Virus record (IMG/VR): IMGVR_UViG_3300032562_000004
Coordinates: 171,813 to 235,812 of that record
DNA: 64,000 nt
From: a virus
Strand: one strand, 5' to 3'
Part shown: piece by piece, positions 10,080-30,819 of the stretch
Numbering within the stretch: position 1 is the first letter of the stretch
Layout: every line of letters begins with the position of its first letter
Notes under the pieces: model-generated
Told to the model about the DNA's origin: nothing
Seen by the model: the letters and a program-made list of their open reading frames with translations, nothing else
The model's database searches: none
Made by a program: the position numbers and the translations under genes

Positions 10080-10934
10080 TCAAGTACCCCAGTCGTTTTT
10101 CCAAAGAACCACTTGAAGTCTATCACTATAGCGTAAGCCATTTGCCATAGCTAGTTCTGCTACTCGACGATTATTCAAAGTATAAACACTTTCAACCCCG
10201 CCAACTGGCATTAAGTAAATTGGGCCTTTAAACCCAGCCGCTTGATAAATTTGCGATACTGCTAGTGCTTCTTCGGCATCTTCTTCTGTAGAGATTACAA
10301 ATTTTAAATAAGTGTATCCAACTTCTTGATATTCGCAAACTACTTCAGGCTTAATAGCATCTTCACGCAATTCACCAGAGCAACTTAATTTAGCACTAAC
10401 ACTAAATGTAACTTGTTTAGGCTTGCCAACTCCATCTAATGACCAGTTAATCAAAAACTCTTTAAACTCTGGACTTAGCTTTTGAGTGCCATTCGTTTCA
10501 AAAGTAATTTCTCGTAAATTGGCCATCTTAGGATTGTTCAGCAAGTCTGGATAAGCACGTTGCCAACCTAACAAAGGTTCTCCGCCTGTGATAACCAAGT
10601 GCTCAGTGCCCCACTGACCAAATGGCAGAATCTCCATAATGCGATTAGCAATAGCATCTGACTCCATTAAAGGACTTAAATCTTTAAAGCGCGGATCCCA
10701 ACTAGCATAGCTATCACATCCTGTACTTACTAATGGCAAGTCTTCATATTTGGTAAACATATGAGCAACTTCTGCTATTTCTTCTACTTCTGTGCTAAGT
10801 TGACCTTTGGGCATACCAAATCCAGCACAGCGGAAATTACAGCCGAAAGTTCTAAGGAATATACTGGGCACTCCCATATAGCGACCTTCGCCTTGAATAC
10901 TATAAAATAGTTCTGCTACTTTTAATTTACTCAC
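10080..10934 (-). CDS. queE: 7-carboxy-7-deazaguanine synthase (radical SAM, QueE-like)
   Basis: QueE converts carboxytetrahydropterin to 7-carboxy-7-deazaguanine using a 4Fe-4S cluster and SAM. AELFYSIQGEGRYMGVPSIFLRT (7-29) and VITGGEPL are QueE hallmarks. The cluster loop is unusual: Cys32 and Cys36 fit CxxxC, but the residue three further on is Phe39. The next Cys is Cys73, in STGCDSYASW, after a 36-residue insertion. Together with FolE, QueD and DpdA in this window it fits a DNA 7-deazaguanine pathway. It overlaps the upstream zinc-ribbon-like gene by 8 bases. Confidence 0.88.
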   Translation of the reverse strand: MSKLKVAELFYSIQGEGRYMGVPSIFLRTFGCNFRCAGFGMPKGQLSTEVEEIAEVAHMFTKYEDLPLVSTGCDSYASWDPRFKDLSPLMESDAIANRIMEILPFGQWGTEHLVITGGEPLLGWQRAYPDLLNNPKMANLREITFETNGTQKLSPEFKEFLINWSLDGVGKPKQVTFSVSAKLSCSGELREDAIKPEVVCEYQEVGYTYLKFVISTEEDAEEALAVSQIYQAAGFKGPIYLMPVGGVESVYTLNNRRVAELAMANGLRYSDRLQVVLWKNDWGT

Positions 10935-11220
10935 CGAATTCCTCTCTCATCATTTGATCATGTTCATTTTCTTCTTTAGCACCTTTCCGTGCTTTTTGTT
11001 CTTGATAGCCGCGACTACCGTCTCCTTTGCCTTTTACTCTGCGCCCACACTCCGTACATTCGTGAAATCCTTGTACAAACTCTTTTCCACTATCAAATGT
11101 TATTACTTCTGTGCCTTCGATTGTGAATTTTTTGTAACACTGGTTAAAGGTACAAACCACTTTCATAGTTTCAGGATCTATAAAAGATACGTCTACTTTT
11201 TTCTTTGACAATTTACTCAT
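10927..11220 (-). CDS. Hypothetical protein with CxxC (97 aa)
   Basis: Starts MSKLSKKKVDVSF; the ATG at 11220 overlaps the upstream stop as ATGA and is preferred over an ATG four codons earlier. It holds two Cys in the middle (VVCTFNQCYK) and a CTECGRR knuckle near residue 76, a possible four-Cys zinc ribbon, followed by a highly charged tail. It overlaps queE. Function unknown. Confidence 0.7.
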   Translation of the reverse strand: MSKLSKKKVDVSFIDPETMKVVCTFNQCYKKFTIEGTEVITFDSGKEFVQGFHECTECGRRVKGKGDGSRGYQEQKARKGAKEENEHDQMMREEFGE

Positions 11221-11771
11221 TTCTTCCACCACCCTTCATAAGGAAAATTAACCCATCGAGGGTCTTCGTTTTTATTAATCTCCATACCAGCATAGTTAAT
11301 AGTTAATTCACTCTTACTTGGTAAGTTATCGATTAGTACTGCTACTCGTACATTGTTGCCCCAAACTTGTTCCCAAACTTCTGTAGCCTGCGGTAAGCAA
11401 CTTGATTGCCAATCTTGTTTAATCCAGTTTAGAGTAGCACCTGTATCATTAATATCATCAACGATAAGAATATTTTTGCGTAGCTTTTTCTTAGAATATG
11501 ATTCGTGATCTTTGCGGATTTCTAAGTTGACATACCCAAAGGCATCACTTGCCATTCCGCAATCACTTACACAATCTTGATCATCCCGTAATGATACTTT
11601 AAGTGTTTGCATTGGCACGTCTAGATATTGGGATATAAGAACAGCTGGAAGTAACCCGCCACGAGTAAGTCCTACAACATAATCGGGTTTCCAGCCGTCT
11701 TTCGTAATTTGACGTAGAATGTCTTGAGTTAAACATTCTACGTCTTTGTAAGTTAAATTAGTATGGTCCAT
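11217..11771 (-). CDS. Phosphoribosyltransferase (type I PRTase)
   Basis: The PRPP-binding motif ILIVDDINDTGAT lies near residues 94-106, preceded by YVVGLTRGGLLPAV near 31-44, a common PRTase strand and loop. Such enzymes salvage purines such as xanthine, hypoxanthine or guanine. The 184-residue form starting at ATG 11771 is preferred because a strong sigma70 promoter (11778-11806) ends six bases upstream; the alternative GTG five codons earlier would lie inside the 10 box. With no RBS, the transcript is predicted to be leaderless. Confidence 0.8.
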   Translation of the reverse strand: MDHTNLTYKDVECLTQDILRQITKDGWKPDYVVGLTRGGLLPAVLISQYLDVPMQTLKVSLRDDQDCVSDCGMASDAFGYVNLEIRKDHESYSKKKLRKNILIVDDINDTGATLNWIKQDWQSSCLPQATEVWEQVWGNNVRVAVLIDNLPSKSELTINYAGMEINKNEDPRWVNFPYEGWWKK

Positions 11772-11777
11772 ACAAGT

Positions 11778-11806
11778 ATTATACACACTTGTATTTAGGT
11801 CGTCAA
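11778..11806 (-). promoter_or_regulatory. Sigma70-type promoter with CCTAAATA in the spacer
   Basis: TTGACG (11801-11806), N17, TATAAT (11778-11783), then exactly six bases before ATG 11771. The spacer contains CCTAAATA (11792-11799), a late-type box, as also seen at 18902-18930 and 26882-26910. All on the minus strand. Confidence 0.82.
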
Positions 11807-12704: not shown

Positions 12705-13473
12705 TTACAATTTTCTCATTATCTTTAATAGTTGCTTCAATCATAGCGAAGTCAAGTCCTAAGTTCTTAACTAAGTTAGCCCACGCACTTGTATCTTTTG
12801 GCAAGCAATGTCCGCCAAAGCCACGCAAGTTTTCATTACACATCAAATATGCTGGATTAATACAATCACGCTTGGTAATAGCATTGTAAACATTATTATA
12901 ATCTGCGCCTAATGCTTTACATACTTCATAAGCAATATTAGCAAAAATAATTTGTACAGAATGATTTACATTGTTGAAGTATTTGATAACTTCTGCTTCT
13001 GCTGGCTTAACACAAGCAACATTTTGTGGCAAGTTACCATGGATAGCTTTAACAATAATATAATCTTCTTCGCGATTACTGCCAATTACTAATAAATCAT
13101 GATTGTACATAAAATCAGCTAACGCTGTTTTAGCACGAAGAAATTCTGGAACGGAGCAAATACGCAAGTTAGGGTATTGGGCAGATAGCTTATCGCAAGT
13201 ACCAGGAACACAAGTACTTTTAAGTCCTACTAAACCTTTGTAGCCAGCGTCGTTTAATTCGCCAACTACCTTTTCTACAATACTTGTATCGCAATCACCA
13301 TTTGGCGCTTGGTTAGTAGGAACACAAATGAATACACATTCTGTATCTAATACATCATTAAGTGTTGATCCTTCGTATGCTGGATCAAAGAAACTCATTT
13401 GGTGACCCAAATGATTTAATCCTTCATAAACTGCTTTGCCTACTGTGCCTTTTCCTATTAAACCAATCTTCAT
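12697..13473 (-). CDS. UDP-glucose/GDP-mannose 6-dehydrogenase-like protein, short form
   Basis: GLIGKGTVGKAVYEGL (4-19) is the NAD loop; LKSTCVPGT near 104 and the catalytic Cys223 in GFGGHCLPKD match UDP-glucose dehydrogenase. These enzymes oxidise NDP-sugars to uronic acids. At 258 residues it lacks the C-terminal sugar-binding domain of the family (usual length about 390-430). It is either a minimal version or acts on another substrate. Same operon as the epimerase and SDR. Confidence 0.85.
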   Translation of the reverse strand: MKIGLIGKGTVGKAVYEGLNHLGHQMSFFDPAYEGSTLNDVLDTECVFICVPTNQAPNGDCDTSIVEKVVGELNDAGYKGLVGLKSTCVPGTCDKLSAQYPNLRICSVPEFLRAKTALADFMYNHDLLVIGSNREEDYIIVKAIHGNLPQNVACVKPAEAEVIKYFNNVNHSVQIIFANIAYEVCKALGADYNNVYNAITKRDCINPAYLMCNENLRGFGGHCLPKDTSAWANLVKNLGLDFAMIEATIKDNEKIVNG

Positions 13474-14070
13474 TCAATTCTCCTCTGGATATTTCATATC
13501 AACTAGTTGATTACTCTGAGCTGACGCCATGCTTAATATTTCTTGTGCCACATCTTCGGGTTCTAAACATATAGCCGAAGTTTTCATATCTATCATTTTA
13601 GTGCGTGTGCGTACTGGATTAATTAATCCTAATGTAACTTCACTGCCTTTAAAATACTCACAGGCACCTTGCCATACATTATATAGTGCTGCTTTACTGG
13701 CGGCGTATAAAATGTAGTCTTTGCGTCCTGACTTATACGCACTAGATCCAACCATAATAATCTTTACAGGTTTCTTAGTACCGTTACTAATGTAATGACG
13801 AATAATGGACCAATTCGATCCAATGTTTATATCAAATGTATTTGAATGTGTTTCGTTATTAGTTTTATCGAAATGACCTACACAATTTACAATAACATCT
13901 GGATCATTACTTGATAACATTTCTTGTATTTTAATATCGCTATCTAAATAAACAAAATTTACTTGATTTTTGCTAATAGGTTTGACAATATAGCCGGCTC
14001 GAGTGAAGGCTTCACAGGTAGCTTGACCGATGCCGCCATTAGATCCAAATATAACTGCTCGTTTAATCAT
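13474..14070 (-). CDS. Classical SDR oxidoreductase
   Basis: FGSNGGIGQATCEAF (8-22) is the TGxxxGIG loop, NCVG near 62 matches the NNAG region, and Ser (VGSSAYKSG) with YAASK near 122-126 forms the catalytic set. About 200 residues is short but complete for a classical SDR. It abuts the dehydrogenase gene and overlaps the cupin gene by 8 bases. A keto-sugar reductase is the likely role by context. Confidence 0.85.
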   Translation of the reverse strand: MIKRAVIFGSNGGIGQATCEAFTRAGYIVKPISKNQVNFVYLDSDIKIQEMLSSNDPDVIVNCVGHFDKTNNETHSNTFDINIGSNWSIIRHYISNGTKKPVKIIMVGSSAYKSGRKDYILYAASKAALYNVWQGACEYFKGSEVTLGLINPVRTRTKMIDMKTSAICLEPEDVAQEILSMASAQSNQLVDMKYPEEN

Positions 14071-14476
14071 GTTTTGGTAAAATAGAATCTACACGGAATG
14101 TATCATTCTCGTAATCTTCGCCACCGCGTGGGCCTTCAGCAAAAGCAATAAACACACAGCCATCGCTACCAGCTTCCATACCGTGGATCTCATTAGGTTC
14201 GCTAATAACCATATCCCCAGGACCGGCAGTGATTCCAACGGCTGGCTCATCACTATCAACAGGCTTAGAGTAATAGTGTAAAGTACCAGCTAACACATAG
14301 GTATACTGCGTAGTAAGTTTGTGATAATGATTAGCACGAATAGCACCAGGAGCGTTAGTAATAATACAAGCATGATTCATATTTGCTTTGTAAAAAATAT
14401 CGGTAATCGAACCACGGTCGTCTGCGTGTTTGCCTAAACCTTCTTCTGTATTGTTATAAATGTTGTAATGTCTCAT
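14063..14476 (-). CDS. Cupin-fold protein (sugar isomerase-like)
   Basis: DDRGSITDIFY then GAIRANHYHKLTTQYTYVLAGTLHYY (about 44-69) is a cupin motif 1 with HxH, and GDMVISEPNEIHGMEA (about 86-101) is motif 2. It resembles WxcM-like or FdtA-like isomerases that act on dTDP-keto sugars, but could be a regulatory cupin. Four-base overlap with the C-methyltransferase gene. Confidence 0.75.
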   Translation of the reverse strand: MRHYNIYNNTEEGLGKHADDRGSITDIFYKANMNHACIITNAPGAIRANHYHKLTTQYTYVLAGTLHYYSKPVDSDEPAVGITAGPGDMVISEPNEIHGMEAGSDGCVFIAFAEGPRGGEDYENDTFRVDSILPKHD

Positions 14477-15702
14477 TGTGATATAAACCTTGTGTTAGGG
14501 TTGATGCTTAATAGAGCTTTCTTTAGTGGCTCTCCGATATTCCAGCTTAGTACTAATGCGTATGGTTTTTCGTGTTTAGCAAACTCGTCATCGCTACGAA
14601 TAGGAATACGAGTTAATGGTGTGTATTTGCCTTGTTTAAATTGACTAGCATCTGTAATACAAGTTAATACTGTTTTATCTAGTTTGTGCCAGTTTAACCA
14701 AGTATTAGCTTTGGCTGCCGCCCCAACACCAATAATAACAGCATCAGGTTCATCTGCTAAAATTTGATAAAAGTTAAGTAGCCACGCATTGCGTTGCTTT
14801 TCAAACTTGTCTTGTAATTTGGTATAGAAAGTAGTATCAAACAAACCCATAGCAGTTTCGTTTTCGATAGCACCACGAACCAAGAATGGCATTCCGTTGT
14901 TAGTAGTATGTTTAGCAATAACTCTAATACTGCCGCCATGATAATCAACTATATCAAAATCTACAATATCTAAACCAACTTGCTGTAGCAAGTTCCAAGC
15001 ACTCTTAATAGTAAAGTAAGAAATGTGTTCGTGATAAACCATATCTACGAATCGACCACTTTCAATCATACTTGCCCAGTACGGTAACTCAAATACAAAT
15101 ATACCATCTTTATCTAATAACTGTGAAACTCCCGAAGCAAAGTTAACAGGATCGTTAGCATGATTGAATACATTGTTAGCTATAATTACCGAAGCCTTGC
15201 CATGTTCTTCGGCAACTTCAACTGCTGTATCAATATTGAATAAAGCAGCTAATGAGTCGACTCCTTTTTCTTTGGCAATATCGCACATAGTTTGGGAAGA
15301 ATCGATCCCAAGTACTTTGGTATCTGTATCTTGAAATTGTTTAATTAAGTAAGCATCGTTACTACCAATCTCTACAACCAATCCCTCAGTGTTGTATTTG
15401 CTTTTGATAGTAGAAGCATATTCATCCCAGTGATCTCTGGCAGTTTTTGAATTTGACGATGTATAGCTATAACTGTATAAGTTATAACGATCTTCGGCAT
15501 CGCTAACGAATCCTAATTGGATTTGCCCTGAACTAGAATTTAAATGTAGTTGTAGTGGAAATACTGGTTCAGACATATGAAGCTGATCTTCAGCAATGAA
15601 TGTATCAGCATAAGCGTGTTGCCCGAAGTCTAAAATTTTTGTAACAAACTCGCCTGTAATTAAACAGCGATCTAAGTGGGTGCTTTCAGTTATTTTACTC
15701 AT
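14473..15702 (-). CDS. Sugar C-methyltransferase (zinc-containing, SAM-dependent)
   Basis: The architecture of NDP-sugar C-methyltransferases is present: an N-terminal CLITG...LDFGQHAYADTF block, a central SAM-binding Rossmann core (VVEIGSNDAYLI around 105-116; IIANNVFNHANDPVNF near 174) and a C-terminal domain with IIGVGAAAKANTWLNW (around 325). The N-terminal zinc site seems reduced, with one clear Cys in place of the usual set. Product: a branched deoxysugar precursor. It overlaps its neighbours by four bases and one base. Confidence 0.85.
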   Translation of the reverse strand: MSKITESTHLDRCLITGEFVTKILDFGQHAYADTFIAEDQLHMSEPVFPLQLHLNSSSGQIQLGFVSDAEDRYNLYSYSYTSSNSKTARDHWDEYASTIKSKYNTEGLVVEIGSNDAYLIKQFQDTDTKVLGIDSSQTMCDIAKEKGVDSLAALFNIDTAVEVAEEHGKASVIIANNVFNHANDPVNFASGVSQLLDKDGIFVFELPYWASMIESGRFVDMVYHEHISYFTIKSAWNLLQQVGLDIVDFDIVDYHGGSIRVIAKHTTNNGMPFLVRGAIENETAMGLFDTTFYTKLQDKFEKQRNAWLLNFYQILADEPDAVIIGVGAAAKANTWLNWHKLDKTVLTCITDASQFKQGKYTPLTRIPIRSDDEFAKHEKPYALVLSWNIGEPLKKALLSINPNTRFISQ

Positions 15703-16529
15703 TATCTTTTTACCGGAGTTTGTATCATTTGTTTATTAATATCATTCTTTTTAAGTTTTTCCCAAGGATCCTGTTGACCTAGTTTTACATTTTGCCAGAA
15801 AGAAAGGTCTTTACCTTTTGACACTAGATAAGAAGCAATCTTTTCAGCGTCAACTAATCTGCCATTGCCATATGAAGGATGATGGAAATCTTTTGGACTA
15901 CTAGGATTACCTTCTAATACCTCACGATTTTTAAATGTAAGGTCTGCGTTGCTACCAGTTAAGTCATGTCTATCGTGTGTAGCGTAAATTTCTACAATTT
16001 CCATAATGTCAAGCATATAAGCAATTTGACTTAACTCAGCATCAATCATTTGATGACGTGAGAAGAATCCAAATAAGTCATACCATTCTTTAGGAACAAT
16101 AGGGAAAATAGAATATGGATGTTCGCGATGAACATGGATTTTAAGTAGTTTGAATTCACCAGTATGATCAGTGATAATTTTATCCCAACCTGTAGTTTCC
16201 ATCAAAGCATCGTCATTCCAAACAAACAACCAATCAGCTGATGCTTGTGCGGCTAAGCCATTATAGTAACGATTTAATCCAACATAACCCATTGGTTCAA
16301 ATACCATTACAGTATAATGAATTCCTTTTTGTTCCATCCAAGGCTGGATTGATTCGGAAAAATATTTTAATCCAACTTCATCATCATTATCAAATGCTAA
16401 TAATAATTGGACCCCGTCAATATCAAGTACTCTGTTAAAAACACTAATAATACTTAATTTTAATGCTGTAGTTCTGCCTCTTGTAGGAAGCATTACCGCT
16501 ATTTTATAATCGTTTTTGGACTGGGCCAT
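15702..16529 (-). CDS. Glycosyltransferase, family 2-like (GT-A fold)
   Basis: AVMLPTRGRTTAL (11-23) and LLLAFDNDDEVGL (41-53) are the opening strands of GT-A enzymes; FVWNDDALMETTGWD (about 101-115) holds the DxD-like metal site as NDD. Length 275. A late-type AGTAAATA box (16554-16561) lies 24 bases upstream with RBS AAGGAT, so this may head the sugar operon late in infection. Acceptor unknown. Confidence 0.8.
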   Translation of the reverse strand: MAQSKNDYKIAVMLPTRGRTTALKLSIISVFNRVLDIDGVQLLLAFDNDDEVGLKYFSESIQPWMEQKGIHYTVMVFEPMGYVGLNRYYNGLAAQASADWLFVWNDDALMETTGWDKIITDHTGEFKLLKIHVHREHPYSIFPIVPKEWYDLFGFFSRHQMIDAELSQIAYMLDIMEIVEIYATHDRHDLTGSNADLTFKNREVLEGNPSSPKDFHHPSYGNGRLVDAEKIASYLVSKGKDLSFWQNVKLGQQDPWEKLKKNDINKQMIQTPVKR

Positions 16530-16588: not shown

Positions 16589-16873
16589 TTAATCTTTGTA
16601 GATAGTGGACCATGTAACTAACTTAGCTGACTTTTTTAAGGTAGCATCGTGTAGTTCTTTCTCAGTAAATAGTTCGTGAGCTTTGAGTAATTCAATTAAT
16701 AAAGTGACATCGCCTAATTCTTGTATCAATTCTTCGCGTTGAGTGCGCCCAGATTTGAGATTTTCTCCTTCTATCCCAAATCTGCGGCACTTGCTTATAG
16801 CTTGAATAACTTCAGCACACTCTTCTTGTAGAATGTCTAAAATTTCGTTAATTTTAGGCGAAGAGGTCTTCAT
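16589..16873 (-). CDS. MazG-like NTP pyrophosphohydrolase (second copy)
   Basis: LQEECAEVIQAISKCRRFG (15-33) and EELIQELGDVTLLIELL (47-63) are the two metal-binding helices of the MazG/dUTPase-like all-alpha fold, with EExxE and ELGD. It overlaps queD by 20 bases. It is more typical of phage MazG than the protein at 3400. Likely pool cleansing or alarmone hydrolysis. Confidence 0.85.
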   Translation of the reverse strand: MKTSSPKINEILDILQEECAEVIQAISKCRRFGIEGENLKSGRTQREELIQELGDVTLLIELLKAHELFTEKELHDATLKKSAKLVTWSTIYKD

Positions 16874-17357
16874 TCCATTCCCTGTGTCCTTCGCGATACG
16901 CCATGTTAGACATTGTTTCGCGAACTTCTACACGATAGCACCATAAGCGGTCAGCTTCGGATTGTCCCCACATATCAGGTATGTAAACTCCGTTAACATA
17001 TTTGTAAAGTTGATCAGCTAGGCCTTCACAACCTAATTTAGGAAGAATGGTTAGTTTAGCAAGATTGCGTTTTTCCATTTCTTTATAAAAGTCAAGTTCC
17101 GGATCATCTTCTGCTACTAACAATGTATGGTCAAACTGTGACTCTAATACCGATTTCAATTCTTTAAGTCCACCGTAATCGGCTGCCCAGTTGCGTACAT
17201 CTAAATCATTTGTACCAAAATAAAACTTCATACTAAATGAATAGCCATGAATTAAATTACAATGACTATCAGCTCTCCATTGACGATAAGCGCAAGGAAA
17301 TGCGTCATGATATTCTTTAGTACTTGTGTATTTGTATTGTATTGCTTGGTTTGCCAT
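16854..17357 (-). CDS. queD: QueD-like 6-carboxytetrahydropterin synthase
   Basis: T-fold enzyme that turns dihydroneopterin triphosphate into carboxytetrahydropterin. The nucleophile Cys33 lies in the usual CxxxH spacing (CNLIHGYS, 33-40); His37 and an upstream His17 are candidate zinc ligands. The third ligand position, normally the second His of HGH, is Tyr39. ADYGGLKELKSVL and FDHTLL (about 70) and VEVRET near the C-terminus match the family. At 167 residues it carries a loop before VEVRET. An extended-10 promoter lies upstream. Confidence 0.82.
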   Translation of the reverse strand: MANQAIQYKYTSTKEYHDAFPCAYRQWRADSHCNLIHGYSFSMKFYFGTNDLDVRNWAADYGGLKELKSVLESQFDHTLLVAEDDPELDFYKEMEKRNLAKLTILPKLGCEGLADQLYKYVNGVYIPDMWGQSEADRLWCYRVEVRETMSNMAYREGHREWNEDLFA

Positions 17358-17695: not shown

Positions 17696-18496
17696 TCATC
17701 TCGGGGCAAAGTCCTGTTGTAGTTTGATATTGTCCATAAACTCTTTCTTAGTGCCAGCATCTTCATTAAATGCTCCACGCAATACAGTAGTCTGTGTCAG
17801 ACTAGAGTGTGCCATAATACCTCTATTTTCGCAACAACCGTGAACAGCCTGTATATATACACCTACGTCTTTACTATCAGTTGCTTTCATTATTTCTTTA
17901 GCGATGTCATTACATAGTTCCTCTTGTAAAGTCCCACGGCGAGCACACCATTGAGCAATCCTTGTATACTTAGAAAGACCAATGAGCTTGTTGGCAGCGA
18001 TGATCCCGATATAGGCAACCCCACTAACTGGCTGATGATGATGACTACACATACTACGCAATTCACTGCGAACAACCAACATACCTTCATATCTATCCTC
18101 TGAATTATTTGGAAACGCTGTACAATCTGGAGCCGGCTCATATCGCCCTGCCATAATTTCGTTAAAATACATCTTAGCTAATCTTTTAGCTGTGCCTTTA
18201 CTGTTGGGATCATTTTCGCGATCAATAAGCAATGCGTCTAGTACACCTTCAAATGCTATAGTGGCATTAGCAATTAATTCATCTCTGTGCCCGACTACAT
18301 ACTCACTAATGTTATCCCCAGCCCAGAAGCGTTTCTTATCGCGTTTCATATTAAAACGGATAGCATCGGCTAAGGTTGCTTCTTCGTACCCTTTGTCGCT
18401 CATCATCATTGCGGCATCTTCGTAGCCAGGATGATACGGTGCTTCTTCTACTAATTTCTTAGCGTTTTCTCTATCTTCTGTTGTAAATGATGTCAT
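17696..18496 (-). CDS. folE: GTP cyclohydrolase I
   Basis: Makes dihydroneopterin triphosphate from GTP, the first step to 7-deazaguanines. The zinc set Cys150, His153 and Cys221 is seen in MCSHHHQPVSG (149-159) and HGCCENRG (219-226); NDPNSKGTAKRLAKMY (95-110) matches the helix that precedes the core. An N-terminal extension of about 60-70 residues before the family core is rich in charged helices. It overlaps the upstream hypothetical gene by four bases. Confidence 0.93.
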   Translation of the reverse strand: MTSFTTEDRENAKKLVEEAPYHPGYEDAAMMMSDKGYEEATLADAIRFNMKRDKKRFWAGDNISEYVVGHRDELIANATIAFEGVLDALLIDRENDPNSKGTAKRLAKMYFNEIMAGRYEPAPDCTAFPNNSEDRYEGMLVVRSELRSMCSHHHQPVSGVAYIGIIAANKLIGLSKYTRIAQWCARRGTLQEELCNDIAKEIMKATDSKDVGVYIQAVHGCCENRGIMAHSSLTQTTVLRGAFNEDAGTKKEFMDNIKLQQDFAPR

Positions 18497-18933: not shown

Positions 18934-19989
18934 CTATGTAATATTTTTTAACAGATTTGTAGCCGAAAAGAAGTTTTCAGAAAGATCCTTGGCTTGTTTT
19001 TCGATATATGGAATTCGAACATCATATGATTCCATATCTTCTATAATAACCTTACATAAGTCTGGACGATAAACATTATACGCTTCATAACTTTCAGTCC
19101 ATATACTAGGATATTTGAAATGATTATAATACATTTCAGTATAACTTAATCGATCCGGAACTAGGGGAATGGCTCCTAGTAATGCGCCTTCGTAACAGCT
19201 AATGCCAAGTGTTTCTTGTAAGTTAGCAGAGAACACAATCTTAGCTTCGCCCAACAATGTGTGATATTCATGTTTAGTAAGTTCTTGTTCTTGACAAACA
19301 ACGAATTCATATTGTGGTAAGTGTGTAGCCAAATCTTTAAAAATGTCTACTTGTTTTTCTGGAGCAATACGATGTGGAAATAAGATTAAGTCACGCTTTT
19401 TTAAATTCTTATAAGGAGCCAGTTCAGCTTCCATATACTCCATGGGCCATCCTGTTTGTGTTACATAAGGATTGGTACCATTATCTTCTACATCAAATAA
19501 GTTTTTAGCAAACATTTTGATATGAAAATCTGTAGCAAAGTAGTTGTGGTCGTATGAAAAGAAATAACTCTTTTCAGCGTGACGCACCCATGGCTTATCT
19601 CCAACTAAGCGTCCAAGAAAGTCTTGAGGATCATAACTGCCAGCATGCCATAAGCCATGTGTGGTTACAGGAATCTGTAACAACTCGCTCATGTATTTTA
19701 AGTTTATGATGCCAGGATGCCAAGCATCAGTAAAAATGAAATGATCACCAGGATTAACTGCTCCGGAGCAAAATAAACGGCCCATCTGCTCAACTTGATT
19801 AGCCTTGTATATATTGGTGCCACCAAAATTAAGAAAAGCACCAGGAGTAGTGGCTTTAGGAATATCCTCAGGGCCAGCGATAATTTGAACATCGTGTCCT
19901 CTCTTTCTAAGAAGGTTAGGTAAGTGAGTTTTCCACTCGCAGGTATAACGAGTGGAAACACTTTCTAGATCGACTAAAAAAACGGTCAA
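18934..19989 (-). CDS. Glycosyltransferase, GT-B fold
   Basis: LFPHRIAPEKQVDIFKDLA (about 207-225) and the C-terminal FSANLQETLGISCYEGALLGAIPLVPDRLSY block with its E-x7-E-like pattern (around 255-285) match group 1 / family 4-like transferases. N-terminal half contains LPNLLRKRGHDVQII. Length 351 is normal. It overlaps the next upstream small gene by four bases. Acceptor could be phage DNA, virion or host glycan; the sequence does not say. Confidence 0.8.
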   Translation of the reverse strand: MTVFLVDLESVSTRYTCEWKTHLPNLLRKRGHDVQIIAGPEDIPKATTPGAFLNFGGTNIYKANQVEQMGRLFCSGAVNPGDHFIFTDAWHPGIINLKYMSELLQIPVTTHGLWHAGSYDPQDFLGRLVGDKPWVRHAEKSYFFSYDHNYFATDFHIKMFAKNLFDVEDNGTNPYVTQTGWPMEYMEAELAPYKNLKKRDLILFPHRIAPEKQVDIFKDLATHLPQYEFVVCQEQELTKHEYHTLLGEAKIVFSANLQETLGISCYEGALLGAIPLVPDRLSYTEMYYNHFKYPSIWTESYEAYNVYRPDLCKVIIEDMESYDVRIPYIEKQAKDLSENFFSATNLLKNIT

Positions 19990-20216: not shown

Positions 20217-20672
20217 TTAAAATTTAATACTATTTGTTGGGCGAGAAAGTTCATACTTTATGAGGCAACCGTTCTCACCATCTTCGGCTACTTCAATCCA
20301 TACAGCACGTTCAGGATACCTGGCGGCTATTTGTACATACAAGTCATCGGCTATCATTTCACATGACTTAAAATCGAGTTCTAAAATATCTTTACTGTAC
20401 AAACTTTCTAACCAGCGTTTAAATTGTATGAACTCCAAATCTCTATTCGAATGCCAAACATCAATCCAAACTTTAAACCAGAACACGTGCCTGTGTGGAC
20501 TAGCTAAAAAGCTAACATCATATTCGCCGGCTGTACATAAATTAGGATCTGTGGCTGCCGCTGGATAACGATGGATACCTTCTCTACGGAAAGTACACCA
20601 AATTTTACGCTCGGCATTTTCTTTAATGCGGTTAGCTTTTTCTAATAATGCTTGTTGTCGTTGTTGATCCAT
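20217..20672 (-). CDS. Possible divergent T-fold (QueD/PTPS-like) protein
   Basis: Not a confident assignment. The central block FLASPHRHVFWFKVWIDV has a His-x-His pair in the place where QueD has LHGHSF. HSNRDLEFIQFKRWLESLY resembles the MDFGDLK region, DFKSCEMIADDLYVQI resembles the PTAENLA helix, and VWIEVAED resembles the VxVxET strand. An additional His (IHRYP, near 35) could be the first zinc ligand. It would be a second T-fold enzyme near the deazaguanine genes, but could be an unrelated phage family. Confidence 0.55.
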   Translation of the reverse strand: MDQQRQQALLEKANRIKENAERKIWCTFRREGIHRYPAAATDPNLCTAGEYDVSFLASPHRHVFWFKVWIDVWHSNRDLEFIQFKRWLESLYSKDILELDFKSCEMIADDLYVQIAARYPERAVWIEVAEDGENGCLIKYELSRPTNSIKF

Positions 20673-22964: not shown

Positions 22965-23872
22965 GCTAACTCGTAAATGTCAATGTTTTCAATAGTCTTG
23001 TGAATCCATACATCTAATTCTAGTTGTAGGTCCCAAAACGCCGGTGTGTCTTTCATTTCTATAGCAGTACTAATCATACGCTTATATGCATCTTCTGGAC
23101 ATAATCCAAGTTCGAAGTAGTAATGGCTACCATCTTCAAATGTCATTAAAATACTACGGTCATCACCAGTTAATGTGCGCCAGTTAGATTCAATAATCCA
23201 ATGGCAGCCATGTGTATCCACATAACTTAATTCCACTTGATCTTCTACATCATAGATACCGTTAACATCTACACGGCCATAATCTGTTTGTGTAAGTTCA
23301 GGTAATGTCCAAAAGCGTTCAGCCGATTCTGTAAGCATATTTGCTTGGTCGTAACTAAATCCAGATAATGATTGGAATAAACTTAACAAATGCGGAAGTA
23401 AATCTCTACTGACTCCACCGTATGCTAAACTCTTAGTAGTAAACCATGTACCCGGATTAGGAACACGGTCATTGTTGTTCCAAGTTAAGTTAATGATTTT
23501 TGCTTTGTGTGCTAGTTGTGTTAGTGTAGCAATATTTTCACGATACTGATTATTCTTAACCATCATGAAGCGTGTATCAGGATAATCGTCTACAAGATTA
23601 TACCACGCTACTGCTGACTCTAGTCCTGGCTTCTCGATAAACACAATACGAGTATGATTTGCTATAGCACGAGCAATATCTTCGTGTGTAAAATTAGGAG
23701 TACAAATATGAGCAGTATCAAAACAAGCATGATCCTTGAATACTTCTTCCAATTCATAATAATCGGCGTCTTTACTTAAATCAGGATCGACTGTAACAAT
23801 CTCATGACCAAGTTCAGTTAATACTTGTTTGTATAACTGCCCAATGCCCATTCCTACAATAAGACTTTTCAT
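22961..23872 (-). CDS. Gfo/Idh/MocA-family oxidoreductase
   Basis: SLIVGMGIGQLYKQVL (3-18) is the NAD(P) loop; HICTPNFTHEDIARAI (54-69) and VFIEKPG (77-83) are the family's CTPxxxH and EKP signatures, with the catalytic Lys in EKP. These enzymes oxidise or reduce sugars and inositol. It overlaps the MDR gene and the DpdA-like gene by four bases. Confidence 0.88.
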   Translation of the reverse strand: MKSLIVGMGIGQLYKQVLTELGHEIVTVDPDLSKDADYYELEEVFKDHACFDTAHICTPNFTHEDIARAIANHTRIVFIEKPGLESAVAWYNLVDDYPDTRFMMVKNNQYRENIATLTQLAHKAKIINLTWNNNDRVPNPGTWFTTKSLAYGGVSRDLLPHLLSLFQSLSGFSYDQANMLTESAERFWTLPELTQTDYGRVDVNGIYDVEDQVELSYVDTHGCHWIIESNWRTLTGDDRSILMTFEDGSHYYFELGLCPEDAYKRMISTAIEMKDTPAFWDLQLELDVWIHKTIENIDIYELA

Positions 23873-25551
23873 GCTTCACTTTCAAGTGCGTCAAGTTTAG
23901 TTTCATCCAATCCAGAATCATCCATATGGTGTTCTTCTGGTTCCTCTGCTTCAAATAAATTACTAAACATAGTACTAGCATTAACTGTTTTCTTACCAGT
24001 AGCGCCACGAGTACCGATAATGCTTTGCCAAAACTTATCATACAAATCAATAATAGCAATAGCTGTTTCACGATCCGGAGCAGCAAATATTGCTTCTACT
24101 ACATCCTTAAAGTATACAGTATCAAAGCGTTCATCTACAAGCATATTGGGACATTTGCCCGCATCATACTCGCGATTAGCTCGTTGTACTGATTCTAAGT
24201 GTGTCCAAACATTATGTCCCATGAGTAATGCGTAAGAGAATGAATCCCAACTTGTTTTACCTTCTTTGCCTACTTTATTTTTGTCGCCTGGTTTATATAT
24301 GCAAATATCTTTAATCTGTAAGTTATTACTAACAGGACTATCGTCGAAGTGATGAATTAGTTTATCTTGTAATACAGCATCGCTAAATTTGCGTGTATCT
24401 GTGGCATACTTTTTATCGTCAACGATAGCACTCATACGATAACACCACTTCTTACGATCTTCGATATCTATTTGATGGTAGACTTGTCCATTAGCGGTTG
24501 CTAAGAATGGACTAGCACAATCAAAACTAATAGTGAAAGCAGGATTAACATACTTACGAACAGCCCGTTGAATATCAGTCAACAATAATGCCCATTCTAG
24601 TTTACTTGTACCCAAGAAGTGCATCCAATCTTGTTTACCTTCTTGTAGTAATCCATCGAACTTCAGTGCTACTAGTCTACGCAATACTAAGTCAACGTCA
24701 CACATATTCTGGCCACCCATAGCCCAACCATTAAATGCCTTATTGCCGTAAATGTTTGGATCGCAGAAGTCTTTCATCTGAGCATACCAGTCATCGGCCT
24801 GTGCGTGATTTTCACCTTGTAGTACATTTAAGAACTTACAAGCACCTGTGCGGTGTTTGATAAAATATTCGTTATTGTACTTGGTTGCTTCGACGGCCTG
24901 CTGATAAGATTCAATACCGGTAGCGGCACGACCAGCTGGACTACGCTCTACCCACGCTGGAATATCAAGTACCATACCATAGTCCATAATACCGTCCATC
25001 CAAGCTAATACTTGGCTACGCTTTTTCTGTGCCGCATCTAATTTAGCTTGATATTCTTTTACATGGTCAATCTTAGTATATTTGGTGTTGCCGTTCTTAT
25101 CATGTTTAGGTGTACCATCTGGCTTTAACGCAGGAACTTGTTCTATGCCTTTAGCTATAGCCTCAGCCATTTTAGCGGCTACTTCCGGGCCGTTAGGATC
25201 ACGCCATTCACCTTCCCACACACCTTTACCAATTTGGAATCCGCCCGAATCGCCTAGAATGAAAGTGTTAGCACGATCCCTGTTACGAATCATGTCTTCA
25301 TTCCAGTCTTGTTTGTTAAGATCCAAGTTGGCGTGTCCTGCTGAATACAAACTCCACTTATATGTAAACAAACCTTTTTGACTATTAAGCCAATTAAGCA
25401 TTTCCATATCTTGGATATTAGTAGGCATACGGGCTTGGTCAACATATTGACTGCCTCGTTGTTTTCCTATGTAAGTACCGTAGAACCCCGACAATGCTGG
25501 CAAAAAGATAGCATAGTCGGATTGTTTGGCAGTTAAATTATCTTGCGCCAT
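23869..25551 (-). CDS. dpdA: DpdA-like DNA 7-deazaguanine transglycosylase (TGT superfamily)
   Basis: The 560-residue protein has the TGT core: LGDSGGFQIG (99-108; TGT DSGGFQ), VLQGENHAQ (243-251; VQG), GWAMGGQ (275-281; AIGG), HFLGTSK (311-317; MGVG region) and SFDCASPFLATANG (342-355), in which Asp344 matches the TGT nucleophile in FDCVxPTRxARNG. The TGT zinc CxCxxC is not evident. Long insertions and the phage context with FolE, QueD and QueE fit the DpdA branch, which exchanges guanine in DNA for a 7-deazaguanine base, rather than a tRNA enzyme. The acidic C-terminal tail is extra. Confidence 0.8.
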   Translation of the reverse strand: MAQDNLTAKQSDYAIFLPALSGFYGTYIGKQRGSQYVDQARMPTNIQDMEMLNWLNSQKGLFTYKWSLYSAGHANLDLNKQDWNEDMIRNRDRANTFILGDSGGFQIGKGVWEGEWRDPNGPEVAAKMAEAIAKGIEQVPALKPDGTPKHDKNGNTKYTKIDHVKEYQAKLDAAQKKRSQVLAWMDGIMDYGMVLDIPAWVERSPAGRAATGIESYQQAVEATKYNNEYFIKHRTGACKFLNVLQGENHAQADDWYAQMKDFCDPNIYGNKAFNGWAMGGQNMCDVDLVLRRLVALKFDGLLQEGKQDWMHFLGTSKLEWALLLTDIQRAVRKYVNPAFTISFDCASPFLATANGQVYHQIDIEDRKKWCYRMSAIVDDKKYATDTRKFSDAVLQDKLIHHFDDSPVSNNLQIKDICIYKPGDKNKVGKEGKTSWDSFSYALLMGHNVWTHLESVQRANREYDAGKCPNMLVDERFDTVYFKDVVEAIFAAPDRETAIAIIDLYDKFWQSIIGTRGATGKKTVNASTMFSNLFEAEEPEEHHMDDSGLDETKLDALESEA

Positions 25552-26132
25552 TATTTAAGACCCATTTGTTTTCTTATTTCAGTCGCTGAAATAGAGTGCG
25601 TATCCTCGTCGAATACTTCGTTTTCAATTTTATAACCAACATTACGACCATAGGTAATGTTTGTAATATTAGGAACGAATACAATAATATACTGTCCTTC
25701 ATACTTTTCCTTTAAATCCGCATGGATGAAGTTTTCTACTTCTTCTTTTTTAAATGGATTAGAATCATTCCAACCTTCGCAATCACGGATCATAATACAA
25801 ACTTGACCTGTTTTAGCAATAGCACGGTCAAACAATGCTCTATGTCCGGCGTGCCATGGCTGCCAACGCCCTAGCATTTGAACAGTAGGCTTACGCCAAT
25901 CAAATCCATCTGGATGTGCGGTTGGCTTAGTATGTCTGCCCCATTTAATTTTATTCCAAACTCTTTCATGAAACCAAAATAAACATATTTTAGTTAACAC
26001 TTCGATAGAAGCGATACTACCAGCAACTACTAGTTCTCCTGTAACAAGAAAACTAACAATAAATGTGTCGATAGTACCAGTAAGGCGCCATGATAGCGCC
26101 TTAACTAAACTTCTAATATTAGTGTCAAACAT
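25551..26132 (-). CDS. DUF2061 membrane domain fused to a nucleotidylyltransferase
   Basis: Residues 1-65 (SLVKALSWRLTGTIDTF, then a membrane hairpin) match the DUF2061 pattern. From about residue 82, MLGRWQPWHAGHRALFDRAI holds the HxGH motif of nucleotidylyltransferases (NMN adenylyl-, cytidylyl- or pantetheine-P type), with SATEIRKQ as the distal ISSTxIR motif. The enzyme would be membrane-anchored. One-base overlaps with clamp and dpdA genes. Substrate unknown. Confidence 0.75.
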   Translation of the reverse strand: MFDTNIRSLVKALSWRLTGTIDTFIVSFLVTGELVVAGSIASIEVLTKICLFWFHERVWNKIKWGRHTKPTAHPDGFDWRKPTVQMLGRWQPWHAGHRALFDRAIAKTGQVCIMIRDCEGWNDSNPFKKEEVENFIHADLKEKYEGQYIIVFVPNITNITYGRNVGYKIENEVFDEDTHSISATEIRKQMGLK

Positions 26133-26854
26133 TATTTAGATTGAGCTGGTAGAATATAAGAATAAACAGCAAGTCCGGAATCAACAATAATCTGCATTGC
26201 GCCTTCATCACTAATACGCATTACTTTATCGCCATACAAGTCAAGAATGCCAATAACAGCTTTGACTGGCCAACTCCATGCTCGCTTGAGATCACCTTGT
26301 ACATCTGGTTGGAATACAAAGTTACCAGCGTGTGTTGAATGATCTCCAAAGAAGAACTTCAAATCACCGCCGTCTACTTTAACTTGGAAATTGTTTTCTT
26401 CGCTATTAGCTGTAGCTTGCATTTTCAAACGCTGAATAGCCGCTGCGCTTGGTTCAACCTCTAAGTTCCATTTAACACCTTTGAACTTAATAGTCTTAAT
26501 CTTTTCATTAGCAACTTCGGCTGCCATAAAACGATATGAATTCTTAAAGTCGCCTGCTTTGTTCACAAAGTTTAACTGATCCGGCGCATTGTCGGCTCTG
26601 CGATTAATAGCAAGTGTAGCATCTTCTTTGTACTCTTGTAAGTTCAAAAGAATTTTAAGTTTGGCTAAATTTGGCATACCAAATGTACCAATAAATTCTG
26701 CTACTGGATTGATTGTTTTACCTTCTACAACAATCGAATTATCTTCAGCTTTGCCAAAGATATTTGTTTCAGTGTCAGTTCCAACTACACGAACTTGTTC
26801 AATACTGCCCAAGTCAAAAGTATGTGAAACTAAGTCTAAAAGATGATCACGCAT
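26132..26854 (-). CDS. 45: DNA polymerase sliding clamp (T4 gp45-like)
   Basis: Ring-shaped processivity factor and, in T4, activator of late transcription. The 240-residue protein has the gp45 layout: N-terminal HTFDLGSIEQVRVVGTDTET, central LKILLNL, and C-terminal LDLYGDKVMRISDEGAMQIIVDSGLAVYSYILPA. Its promoter (26882-26910) carries the late-type box in the spacer. The leader has RBS AAAGGAAAT. Confidence 0.88.
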   Translation of the reverse strand: MRDHLLDLVSHTFDLGSIEQVRVVGTDTETNIFGKAEDNSIVVEGKTINPVAEFIGTFGMPNLAKLKILLNLQEYKEDATLAINRRADNAPDQLNFVNKAGDFKNSYRFMAAEVANEKIKTIKFKGVKWNLEVEPSAAAIQRLKMQATANSEENNFQVKVDGGDLKFFFGDHSTHAGNFVFQPDVQGDLKRAWSWPVKAVIGILDLYGDKVMRISDEGAMQIIVDSGLAVYSYILPAQSK

Positions 26855-27821: not shown

Positions 27822-30482
27822 TTAGAACTCAAATAAATTTTGAAATGTATTTTCAGTATTAGTAGCACTAGCTAAGTCCCAATCTAATACACTTAATAAG
27901 TTATCAATCTTTTGGTCTACAATAGTAGCTTCCATTAAGGCATCATCAAATGGAAGTTCTTTAAACCAATCAGGCAAACGTTGCTCATCTGTAGGGTAAC
28001 CAATACTAGTCCAACCCAATGGATTTGGCTTTAACTTACATACAATAGTTTTCATGCCGTCGACTACCGCAATAGAATAATTGTCGCTATTCATACGACG
28101 TAGATTGTTCCAGTTTAGTGCCGCACGAACGTGTCCTGGCATATTAGCTTTGCCTGCTTTTTCTTCAGCCGCACCATATTTGGTCAAGTTGTTTACACGT
28201 TTAGGTGTACCCTTTTCCCAAGCTGGACGCTCAGCAAACGCATACTTAAATTCTCTAATGCGCTCAACAATTTCTTCACGACCTGTACCAGTTAATACCT
28301 TTTCCAAAATCTCACTTAAAAACTCTTGAATTATTTTAGGAGTATCCGAACGCTTTAAGTCTAAGCCCATAGCTTTAATCTTGCCTGGCTTACCGTCTAC
28401 GTCAAGGCGCTTGCCTTCTAAGTCATAAATTAATACAGCATAACGCTTCTTAGTAATAAACAAACTATTAGATGCTACTAGTTCGCGACCCGCTTTAATA
28501 AGTTCGCCAGCTTCACGAGGACAGTGGAAAGCCTGTTCCATAAATGCCGGAAATGAATCATTAACTTGATCCGCAATGCTATCATAGAGTTGAATACAAC
28601 TTTCTTTACTCCAAGACATCTTTCCAGCCGCCACATCATCTTTGATAGCTGGCCACGCTGTAAAATAGCATGAGTCAGTGTCACCATAGATAATTGCTTG
28701 TCCTAAATGGTCTTTAACCCCAAAGATACATTCGTTAATATAACTAGCCATGTGTCGAGCAATACTACGACCCGATAGTGTAGTTGACTGTCCAATACGC
28801 TTGTCAAAGAAACGACAATGTGGATTTAAAATAGCACCGTATAACGAATTTAAGTTAATCTTCTTAACTAACTGTCGCTTATCCCAGAACGCAATCATCT
28901 TAGGATCAGTAGCTTCTTTTTTCTTAGCTTGAAGTTCTTTACGTTCAGCATACCAACGCTCTAACAATCCTGGCACAACACCTTTACGCTCATATGTAAC
29001 AATAGTGCCATTAGCGGTTAGCATCCAAGGTTTGTTAGAATTAAATACCATCTCCCAAATCTCAGCCGCACTATGTACAGTACTATCGCCATCTTGCCAG
29101 TCGATTGTAATTTCAGTACCACGCTGTTGATCCATGACCGCTGTATATTCTAATGTAGCAAACATACCTTCCCACGCTGCCGCAAATGATTTGCCTTTAC
29201 CAACAATTTCATTAATGTAACGATCAGTCATAATAGGACGAAGTTGTCCTACTACAGTTTCCATTCCCATGTTCAACGCACGAATAGCAGATGGATAAAG
29301 TGAGTTAATATCCACAGCGCCGATCCATTCATGAATACCCTTTTTAGGATACGCAACATAAGCACCTGCGGCCGCTGTATCTTCTTCGTCTGTTAATCTT
29401 TGTTTACGATTAGGTACAACAAGTCCACGCTCATGTGCTTCGTTAATAATAGCTTGTTCAGTAACAGCTACGGCACCCATTGTAGTTGCTAACAATACAG
29501 TATTGGCGTGTGCGAGTTCGTTAGCTAAGTCCAAGAAGCGTAACTTCTTATCTAACTTGTCTAACAACAATGTATCTTGCCTGTTATACACAATAAACTG
29601 TTTAAAGTCTTGATTGTATAATTGATCCAATGTGCCTTCGTATTGTGTTTTACTTTCGCCTAGTTCATATTCAGAAATAGCATCCAATGAATAACTGTGT
29701 CGTTCTTCATAGGTGTACTTACGATATAATTGCATATAGTCCATGTGTACACGACCTACGATATCATAAGTTGTGCTAGTAGCACCATATCGCTCAAATT
29801 CACGCTCTTTAGGGAATTGACCCCACAAGCAGAATCTGCGTGTATCATCTTTAGACAATACTCGCTTGATACGATTTACTGTGTATGGTATATCATAGCC
29901 TTCTGAGTTCCAACCTGAAATAACATCTGCGTCATCGATTAAGTCCAGGAATGTTTTTAACATATCCTCTTCTTTTTCAAACACAATACAGTTTTCAAAG
30001 TCTTTAGCAATATCATTAGCTGTTTCGATACTCATATGCTTGGGTGGCACAACCAATGTAACTAGTTGCTCCATCCATTGTAAGTAAACAGAAATAGCTG
30101 TAATGCCGTTGAATGGATCAGTGGTAGGAGAGAATCCTTTCTCCTTGTGAAAGTCTACTTCAATGTCGAAGAATGCCGCATGGAGTTCTGGAGCATCTTT
30201 ATTTTTGTAATTTTCTTCTAAACAACGGAAGATAGGATTGATATCAGATTCATAAAGTTGTTTGCCTTTTTGAATGGCTACTTCCTTACGAAACTCTTTA
30301 CTATTACGACTAGAAAAGCGGGCAACTGGTGTGCCATAGATAGAAGTAAATTTACCTCTAGGATCGTTGTAGTAAAAGATATAATCAGCGGGGTATTCTT
30401 TATAAATTCTTTCCCCGTTGATTCGTTCTACAACATGAATTCGATCGTGTTCACGATCATATAGACAATCTACATAACTCAA
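27822..30482 (-). CDS. 43: DNA polymerase, family B (T4 gp43-like)
   Basis: Replicative polymerase, 886 residues. Exonuclease motifs: FFDIEVDF (Asp106, Glu108), GWNSEGYDIPYT (190-201) and YNRQDTLLLDKL (Asp303). Polymerase motifs: A, DINSLYPS (391-398); B, KKINLNSLYGA (540-550); C, YGDTDS (599-604). All catalytic residues are intact. The start is a TTG at 30482 with the RBS CGGAG; no in-frame ATG fits. Upstream lie an 11-codon frame ending one base before the TTG and a GTTCG/CGAAC hairpin. Confidence 0.95.
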   Translation of the reverse strand: MSYVDCLYDREHDRIHVVERINGERIYKEYPADYIFYYNDPRGKFTSIYGTPVARFSSRNSKEFRKEVAIQKGKQLYESDINPIFRCLEENYKNKDAPELHAAFFDIEVDFHKEKGFSPTTDPFNGITAISVYLQWMEQLVTLVVPPKHMSIETANDIAKDFENCIVFEKEEDMLKTFLDLIDDADVISGWNSEGYDIPYTVNRIKRVLSKDDTRRFCLWGQFPKEREFERYGATSTTYDIVGRVHMDYMQLYRKYTYEERHSYSLDAISEYELGESKTQYEGTLDQLYNQDFKQFIVYNRQDTLLLDKLDKKLRFLDLANELAHANTVLLATTMGAVAVTEQAIINEAHERGLVVPNRKQRLTDEEDTAAAGAYVAYPKKGIHEWIGAVDINSLYPSAIRALNMGMETVVGQLRPIMTDRYINEIVGKGKSFAAAWEGMFATLEYTAVMDQQRGTEITIDWQDGDSTVHSAAEIWEMVFNSNKPWMLTANGTIVTYERKGVVPGLLERWYAERKELQAKKKEATDPKMIAFWDKRQLVKKINLNSLYGAILNPHCRFFDKRIGQSTTLSGRSIARHMASYINECIFGVKDHLGQAIIYGDTDSCYFTAWPAIKDDVAAGKMSWSKESCIQLYDSIADQVNDSFPAFMEQAFHCPREAGELIKAGRELVASNSLFITKKRYAVLIYDLEGKRLDVDGKPGKIKAMGLDLKRSDTPKIIQEFLSEILEKVLTGTGREEIVERIREFKYAFAERPAWEKGTPKRVNNLTKYGAAEEKAGKANMPGHVRAALNWNNLRRMNSDNYSIAVVDGMKTIVCKLKPNPLGWTSIGYPTDEQRLPDWFKELPFDDALMEATIVDQKIDNLLSVLDWDLASATNTENTFQNLFEF

Positions 30483-30558: not shown

Positions 30559-30819
30559 TTATAGTGTTTTGCCCACTTGAGTTAAAATTTGTTCTAGCAA
30601 GCTATGGTCATCTTGTGTACGGCCAAATTCAGCTTTGTGAGCAATCTTAATAGCTTTTTTAAGGATAGCTGGTTTAATTTCTAATTCTTCAGCAATAGCT
30701 TTAACTGTGTCATTCAATCCACCTTGTAGTGTTTCGATTTCCATAGTAACAGCCATACCTTCATTGATAATTTGCTCTAATTTTTTAGTTTGTTCTGCTG
30801 TGAATACGCGGTCTGACAT
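30559..30819 (-). CDS. DsbA-like dsDNA-binding late-transcription protein
   Basis: 86 residues, nearly all helical. The pattern LEQIINEG...EIETLQGGLNDTVKAIAEELEIKPAILKKAIKIAHK parallels T4 DsbA (long helix, then EL-x-V..., then a basic helix), which binds DNA near late promoters. Length also fits T4 DsbA (89). A sigma70 promoter (30846-30874) and a strong RBS (AGGAGA) precede it. Sequence identity is low, so the assignment rests on pattern. Confidence 0.6.
   Translation of the reverse strand: MSDRVFTAEQTKKLEQIINEGMAVTMEIETLQGGLNDTVKAIAEELEIKPAILKKAIKIAHKAEFGRTQDDHSLLEQILTQVGKTL

Follow-up and report, generated by a model that had tools for sequence, protein, structure and literature searches.

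The stretch of DNA analysed here (the window) comprises 64,000 nucleotides, bases 171,813–235,812 of the 235,812-bp linear virus record IMGVR_UViG_3300032562_000004. Between replication genes on one side and genes for 7-deazaguanine synthesis on the other, it holds an ATG-initiated open reading frame (ORF) of 560 residues that we read as a candidate DNA guanine transglycosylase of the DpdA type (Table 1). A first-pass annotation had singled out this ORF as akin to tRNA-guanine transglycosylases (TGTs) by the signatures DSGGFQ and FDCxxP, and we find exactly that ORF with both motifs (DSGGFQ at D101–Q106; FDCASP at F343–P348). The protein has zero matches in Pfam, PHROGs, NCBIfam and PADLOC, so that before structure prediction its TGT identity consisted of the motifs only. 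The ORF is nevertheless no chance frame, since D101, D196, D344 and H446 are kept in 32 of 32 aligned relatives and at least 513 viral contigs hold relatives.

Table 1. Features of the locus and of related contigs (window positions unless a contig is named)
Feature	Position	Strand	Evidence or context
QueE, 7-carboxy-7-deazaguanine synthase (radical SAM)	10080..10934	(-)	phrog_2076 E 4.2e-55; TIGR03365 below cut-off
HGPRT-like phosphoribosyltransferase, candidate guanine salvage	11217..11786	(-)	PF00156 E 3.1e-13; beside QueE
QueD / PTPS family	16854..17357	(-)	PF01242 E 3.2e-13
FolE, GTP cyclohydrolase I	17696..18496	(-)	PF01227 E 1.6e-39
GT-B/GT4-like glycosyltransferase	18934..19989	(-)	Orthologous to PA5oct gp167 and to the gene that overlaps dpdA2 in ACP17
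Conserved ORF between dpdA and glycosyltransferase	20217..20672	(-)	131 loci including the window; PA5oct 52% identity
DpdA-like DNA guanine transglycosylase (candidate)	23869..25551	(-)	AlphaFold2 with Foldseek/VIA-align fold; hhalign to DpdA2; conservation
PCNA-fold sliding clamp	26132..26854	(-)	AlphaFold2 pLDDT 91.6; Foldseek; upstream of dpdA
DNA polymerase B, C-terminus ENTFQNLFEF (clamp-binding-like)	27822..30482	(-)	PF00136 E 5.4e-36
Small conserved ORF upstream of polB	30559..30819	(-)	150 loci including the window
QueC-like ORF, 208 aa	L104 9491-10117 (G001); L096 1096-1722 (G003)		Contigs carrying this dpdA

Fold and family of the 560-residue protein

A sequence search of the PDB with the profile of this branch gave two chance matches only (mite allergen), and it was the structural search that resolved the fold. 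With the AlphaFold2 model built from 32 relatives (mean pLDDT 88.1, pTM 0.84), the best 42 Foldseek matches in the PDB are all TGTs (top E 7.9e-7); in a second look with VIA-align, all 50 of the matches listed are TGTs, the best being 2ash (Z 20.4 over 298 residues, root-mean-square deviation 4.1). The active-site aspartate pair of TGTs, the DSGG aspartate (D101) and the FD aspartate (D344), is conserved in all 32 relatives. If, as we assume, the catalytic roles of these residues carry over from TGT, D101 and D344 are candidates for the catalytic aspartates.

Profile comparison ties the branch, distantly, to DpdA2. Aligned by hhalign with seven DpdA2 proteins, its profile scores E 9e-7 (prob 91) over 189 columns, with DSGG(F/L)Q, LQG, HxLG and IS(F/Y)D in register. 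Like the DpdA2 of Vibrio phage nt-1 (YP_008125322) and its relatives (Hutinet 2019, PMC6884629), the protein is TGT-related and encoded beside FolE, QueD and QueE, but identity in the profile alignment is ~18-19%, there is no BLAST-level match (BLASTP against nt-1 returned nothing significant), and the window protein is ~100 residues longer. The DpdA1 of Enterobacteria phage 9g shares with it a gene position by sliding clamp and polymerase, a C-terminal LF motif and the proposed chemistry, yet has 317 residues and matches neither by BLASTP (E 2.3) nor significantly by profile (hhalign prob 0.3, E 0.19). Searches with the branch profile found no match in 9g, nt-1, pf16, BUCT-ZZ01, ACP17, X1 or Moby, nor in CP220, phi38:1, phiST or HVTV-1, where DpdA3 and DpdA4 genes were not located. 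By sequence comparison, the protein is a previously unrecognised DpdA branch, distantly related to DpdA2 and outside both DpdA1 and DpdA2.

Might it instead be a TGT that acts on host or phage tRNA? Its fold and its top structural matches are those of tRNA TGTs, and it shares with 2ash and 1iq8 the DSGG and FDC motifs and an HN motif. The zinc site of tRNA TGTs has the form CxCxxC...H. In this branch, by contrast, the cysteine cluster is not conserved, only C417 (30 of 32 relatives) and H446 (32 of 32) being kept; no tRNA-TGT family model of Pfam or NCBIfam matches the protein; and the gene lies in a DNA-replication operon and encodes a tail of the clamp-binding type. We consider a tRNA substrate highly improbable, and exchange of guanine in DNA very probable. 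The first-pass reading of the ORF as DpdA-type, which drew on the neighbouring FolE, QueD and QueE, is supported by the TGT fold, the distant DpdA2 homology, the replisome context and the missing match to tRNA-TGT models.

The branch is widespread in viral contigs: 513 of 516 pattern-matching stretches encode a relative, as do at least 597 of at least 599 found with a broader profile. Among named phages it occurs in 11 PA5oct-group records (Pseudomonas jumbo phages), Sinorhizobium phage Phosso and Vibrio phage 2.275.O; single-protein scans from the DpdAs of 2.275.O and PA5oct yielded no further viral contigs. A distant DpdA-like gene (best segment 23% identity) also lies on a bacterial contig, of Azospirillum picis (L130 9962-11371). 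Its neighbours there, identified by eye, comprise recombinases, a reverse transcriptase, a WYL-type regulator, a dynamin-like GTPase and an ORF resembling DNA polymerase A; the region may be a defence or mobile island.

Sliding clamp, polymerase and the DpdA tail

The order polB, clamp ORF, dpdA recurs among the loci of this branch. As with DpdA itself, a profile search of PDB sequences with the clamp family gave chance matches only, with neither gp45 nor PCNA among them, and structure resolved the fold: the 50 best Foldseek matches listed for the modelled ORF are PCNA clamps (top E 2.7e-11). The clamp ORF is present in 160 of the 164 dpdA loci that have at least 1.2 kb upstream, and in 136 of the 162 loci that hold it, it lies directly upstream of dpdA. 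Its homologue in PA5oct is gp170 (L011 18912-19658), annotated as a 'structural protein' by electrospray ionization tandem mass spectrometry. Clamp adjacency fails in Phosso, where a 240-residue gene upstream of dpdA had been taken for the clamp by position and was rejected because its sequence is not clamp-like. Directly upstream of dpdA in the window (25551-26132) lies a DUF2061 membrane domain fused to a nucleotidyltransferase-like domain, an arrangement found in 12 loci including this one.

The C-terminal tail of the window's DpdA (residues 516–550) is disordered and carries TMFSNLFE, with the spacing F529-x-x-L532-F533; the consensus for binding to bacterial clamps is QLxLF. Of 138 unique, C-terminally complete DpdAs, 111 have the strict pattern [FYLIVM]xx[LF]F within their last 60 residues, compared with 20 of the 418 other ORFs in those loci and 12% of shuffled tails; a looser core is found in 123 of these DpdAs, against 73 of the 418 and 33% of shuffled tails. 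Most of the 15 tails that lack this core have MF, IF, VF or HF at the same site. The motif also appears to vary together with that of the polymerase. We compared 130 DpdA–polymerase pairs, dropping six whose polymerase falls outside the LF/FF pattern (among them that of PA5oct, a split gene, and those of L132 and L138, which end in SLFDF/TLFDF plus extra residues). Polymerases ending in FF are paired with an FF DpdA in 5 of 5 cases and those ending in LF in 4 of 119 (Fisher p 6e-7, relatedness ignored); in PA5oct the polymerase has HFDSLFGW and DpdA SFNSLFDV.

Similar endings, QxxLF and SLxxLF, occur in DpdA1 and in many of the DpdA2 proteins. Among DpdA1 proteins (11 of 226 records taken), seven of the nine from non-mycobacterial phages have an exact LF end, one has FF, and 9g has LFDE; those of the mycobacteriophages Typha and CRB2 have no such C-terminal motif. 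A clamp is annotated at or near dpdA in 9g, slur01, R7M, RHEph26 and Ssp-JY38. Four of seven DpdA2 proteins have SLxxLF-like ends (SLDDLFG, SLEELFG, TLDELFE and SLDSFFD). In phage T4, polymerase, ligase, gp33 and gp55 carry motifs of this kind, to which the gp45 clamp binds (PMC7892883, PMC9690074). The T4 motifs on gp43, gp55 and gp33, as presented there, resemble those seen here in being short, hydrophobic and C-terminal, on a flexible linker, with a trimeric clamp as partner; here, by contrast, the motif sits on a base-exchange enzyme and often 20-40 residues from the end.

These patterns suggest that DpdA is probably tethered to the clamp during base exchange. Some observations pull the other way: the strict pattern is missing from 27 of the 138 DpdAs, the predicted binding site is a short motif whose looser core arises in 33% of shuffled tails, and the DpdA2 proteins of nt-1, KVP40 and pf16 have no clean clamp motif. 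Among the papers listed in a literature search for DpdA together with a sliding clamp, its coverage mostly excluding subscription papers, there was no such report. If tethering is real, clamp riding would explain how DpdA reaches guanines throughout the genome and how exchange is confined to newly made phage DNA, and it would offer a testable rule spanning DpdA types.

7-Deazaguanine genes and QueC

The first-pass annotation had placed FolE, QueD and QueE near dpdA, and Pfam or PHROG matches identify all three (Table 1). Across 26 dpdA-bearing records, many of them fragments, FolE, QueD and a strong QueE occur together in 12; counted singly, FolE is found in 20, QueD in 16 and QueE in 19 at E<=1e-38, or in 23 at E<=1e-3, four of these with weak radical-SAM matches only. 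A complete S-adenosylmethionine synthetase lies near the radical-SAM QueE in the window (8734-9858), with none in the other dpdA neighbourhoods examined.

Canonical QueC is missing. It had been called absent from the window, which PF06508 confirms, and neither PF06508 nor a motif scan found one in the whole 235,812-bp record. The earlier guess that the base is therefore of the 7-carboxy-7-deazaguanine (CDG) type is strengthened by PA5oct, Phosso, ACP17, BUCT-ZZ01 and X1, none of which has a QueC over the curated cut-off. The DpdA2 phages nt-1, pf16, Moby and KVP40 do carry QueC, and 9g has Gat-QueC and makes dG+. Over the cut-off, QueC appears in 4 of 28 records (Vibrio 2.275.O, G001, G003 and G007) and, in a second set, in 3 of 15 (nt-1, pf16 and Moby); in that second set X1 has a partial match below cut-off, and ACP17, BUCT-ZZ01 and nine large contigs have none. 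The QueC of 2.275.O is full and accompanied by QueF. The partial match in G007 is a PP-loop protein in which no QueC cysteine cluster was seen. The PP-loop ORFs L097 and L098 were set aside as QueC candidates, as by eye they are without the QueC cysteine motif, and their homologue in the window (43792-44730) was rejected on the same ground.

The partial matches in G001 and G003 are one orthologous 208-residue QueC-like ORF, and with it comes a different account of the base, namely that it is preQ0 or a later derivative, the pathway being completed by a host QueC or by a QueC-like gene that has been lost or that this assembly lacks. G001, a 60-kb contig, matches the record at 99.99-100% identity over its first ~39.5 kb; the two (record, L010 ~5021; G001, L104 ~7522) stay near-identical until they reach a group of small repeated paralogues, beyond which they differ, and the QueC-like ORF sits past that point. 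Strain variation or an incomplete or branching assembly could account for this departure. The ORF keeps SGGxDS and a cysteine cluster, the latter with 9 spacer residues rather than 8, and 2.275.O, with QueC and QueF, belongs to the same DpdA branch. Against a preQ0-derived base, the ORF was found in only 2 of 48 records searched, and PA5oct, Phosso, ACP17 and BUCT-ZZ01 are without QueC. Nor does its translation in G001, read by eye, contain YxQxHxxE, VPxRN or YPDC, which PMC13329287 gives as canonical QueC motifs. We regard this account as unlikely and think it fairly likely that the base is made without a phage QueC, though G001 and G003 do hold the QueC-like ORF alongside this dpdA, and preQ0 may come from the hosts.

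Linked glycosyltransferase, phosphoribosyltransferase and proposed pathway

Linked to dpdA is a gene for a GT4-like glycosyltransferase. Six of 17 family members reach PF00534 (Glycos_transf_1) at E<=0.01 (best 9.4e-6), all under the curated cut-off where bit scores are shown; a primase identity for this gene was rejected in favour of a glycosyltransferase on its translation and the Pfam matches of relatives. Four members of the alignment being 22-29% identical to the window protein, orthologues were recounted by BLAST at E<1e-15. On that count the gene is present in 105 of 169 dpdA loci, the window included, on the same strand in 105 of 105, and in 73 of the 81 loci with at least 5 kb downstream of dpdA. 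The two genes overlap by one base in PA5oct, and in Acidovorax phage ACP17 a gene of this family overlaps dpdA2 by 4 bp (hhalign with the window family E 4.6e-67, 39% identity over 335 columns), so that a DpdA2 is paired with the same glycosyltransferase family.

Searching 50,697 phage records gave 20 matches to the glycosyltransferase, of which 16 are DpdA phages (ACP17 twice, Phosso, 11 PA5oct-group records, X1 and BUCT-ZZ01), when all DpdA records number ~309 of the 50,697, overlaps not removed. The other four are Erwinia phage Ep032 and three Xanthomonas PhiXhv phages, at 24.6%; within 9 kb of the match in PhiXhv-12, the part of that genome searched, sugar genes are present and nothing is annotated as a Que gene. 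None of the five isolate lineages with the glycosyltransferase (PA5oct, Phosso, ACP17, BUCT-ZZ01 and X1) has QueC over the cut-off, and nt-1, pf16, Moby and Vibrio 2.275.O have QueC and no glycosyltransferase match. In 2.275.O its position, as known from PA5oct, is occupied by an Amidoligase_2-like ORF right after dpdA (L093 16723-17835; E 1.8e-4, just under cut-off), which may be another tailoring enzyme.

That the glycosyltransferase tailors a CDG-type base, leaving it glycosylated, is in our estimation plausible but just short of probable. Telling against it are the window protein's own match to PF00534, at E 0.01 only, the 8 of 81 loci without the gene, 2.275.O among them, and G001, which combines the window's glycosyltransferase region with the QueC-like ORF. 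The phage might also insert plain CDG or 7-deazaguanine, with no sugar, the glycosyltransferase serving capsid or surface glycans; Cui is said to have reported dCDG and dDG in phage DNA in 2023. Other sugar genes of the window could form a separate glycan pathway, which favours this alternative, while the overlap of the same family with dpdA2 in ACP17 and its occurrence mostly in DpdA phages speak against it; we rate it a lesser, though serious, possibility. Between QueE and QueD (11811-16529) runs a set of nucleotide-sugar genes (epimerase, UDP-glucose dehydrogenase, SDR, C-methyltransferase and a glycosyltransferase-like gene), which could supply sugar for the base or for surface glycans. 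The glycosylation proposed here, like that of hydroxymethylcytosine by the T4 DNA glucosyltransferases, would be the action of a phage glycosyltransferase on a modified base, with the difference that the enzyme is GT4-like by sequence and its putative target a CDG-type base. A search for 7-deazaguanine together with glycosyltransferase likewise gave no such report among the papers listed, in a literature from which subscription papers were mostly absent.

The phosphoribosyltransferase beside QueE finds its PDB matches among purine, hypoxanthine-guanine and putative phosphoribosyltransferases. It occurs in 46 of the 169 dpdA loci and in 32 of the 47 with QueE, on QueE's strand in 32 of 32 loci with both. 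Base exchange frees guanine, which makes salvage plausible, and we tentatively assign the enzyme to recovery of the displaced base; action on CDG is an alternative. Its 23 phage records comprise 11 of the PA5oct group, BUCT-ZZ01, five Cellulophaga, four Flavobacterium and two Brevundimonas phages. The Cellulophaga phages we take to be 7-deazaguanine phages; its presence in the Flavobacterium and Brevundimonas phages, which may or may not encode a DpdA, weakens the link to base exchange.

Fold, homology, gene linkage, motif enrichment and the absence of QueC are computed; the reactions and interactions, all of them, we infer. In the pathway that we propose, phage FolE, QueD and QueE would make CDG, and the 560-residue DpdA would swap guanine in phage DNA for CDG or a derivative by a covalent aspartate mechanism, with D344 as nucleophile and D101 as acid/base by analogy with TGT. 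Its flexible tail would dock on the PCNA-like clamp through the polymerase-like motif, so that exchange would follow the replication fork. The GT4-like glycosyltransferase would then probably attach a sugar, either to the CDG-type base or, ahead of insertion, to the base in its free form; the HGPRT-like enzyme would probably turn displaced guanine back into guanosine monophosphate; and the modified DNA would be protected from host nucleases. Taken together, exchange by DpdA, clamp docking, glycosylation, salvage and protection form what we consider the best explanation of the locus, and a likely one. To the first-pass annotation this adds the clamp-binding-like tail, the linked glycosyltransferase, the phosphoribosyltransferase and the placement outside DpdA1 and DpdA2.

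We are more doubtful of the strongest joint claim, that jumbo phages with this branch carry a glycosylated CDG-derived base, that their DpdA rides the clamp, that guanine is recycled by a dedicated phosphoribosyltransferase and that clamp tethering is general for the DpdAs of clamp-encoding phages. Were the pathway correct, glycosyl-deazaguanine would be a class of base modification not yet described, which the cultured phages PA5oct and ACP17 would carry. It would also give names to PA5oct proteins annotated as hypothetical or 'structural' (the DpdA gp168, the clamp gp170 and the glycosyltransferase gp167), in a therapy-relevant group of Pseudomonas jumbo phages.

Elsewhere in the window, at 902-1319, ARAGORN calls a permuted-type transfer-messenger RNA with an unusual 29-residue tag, which may be a false call.

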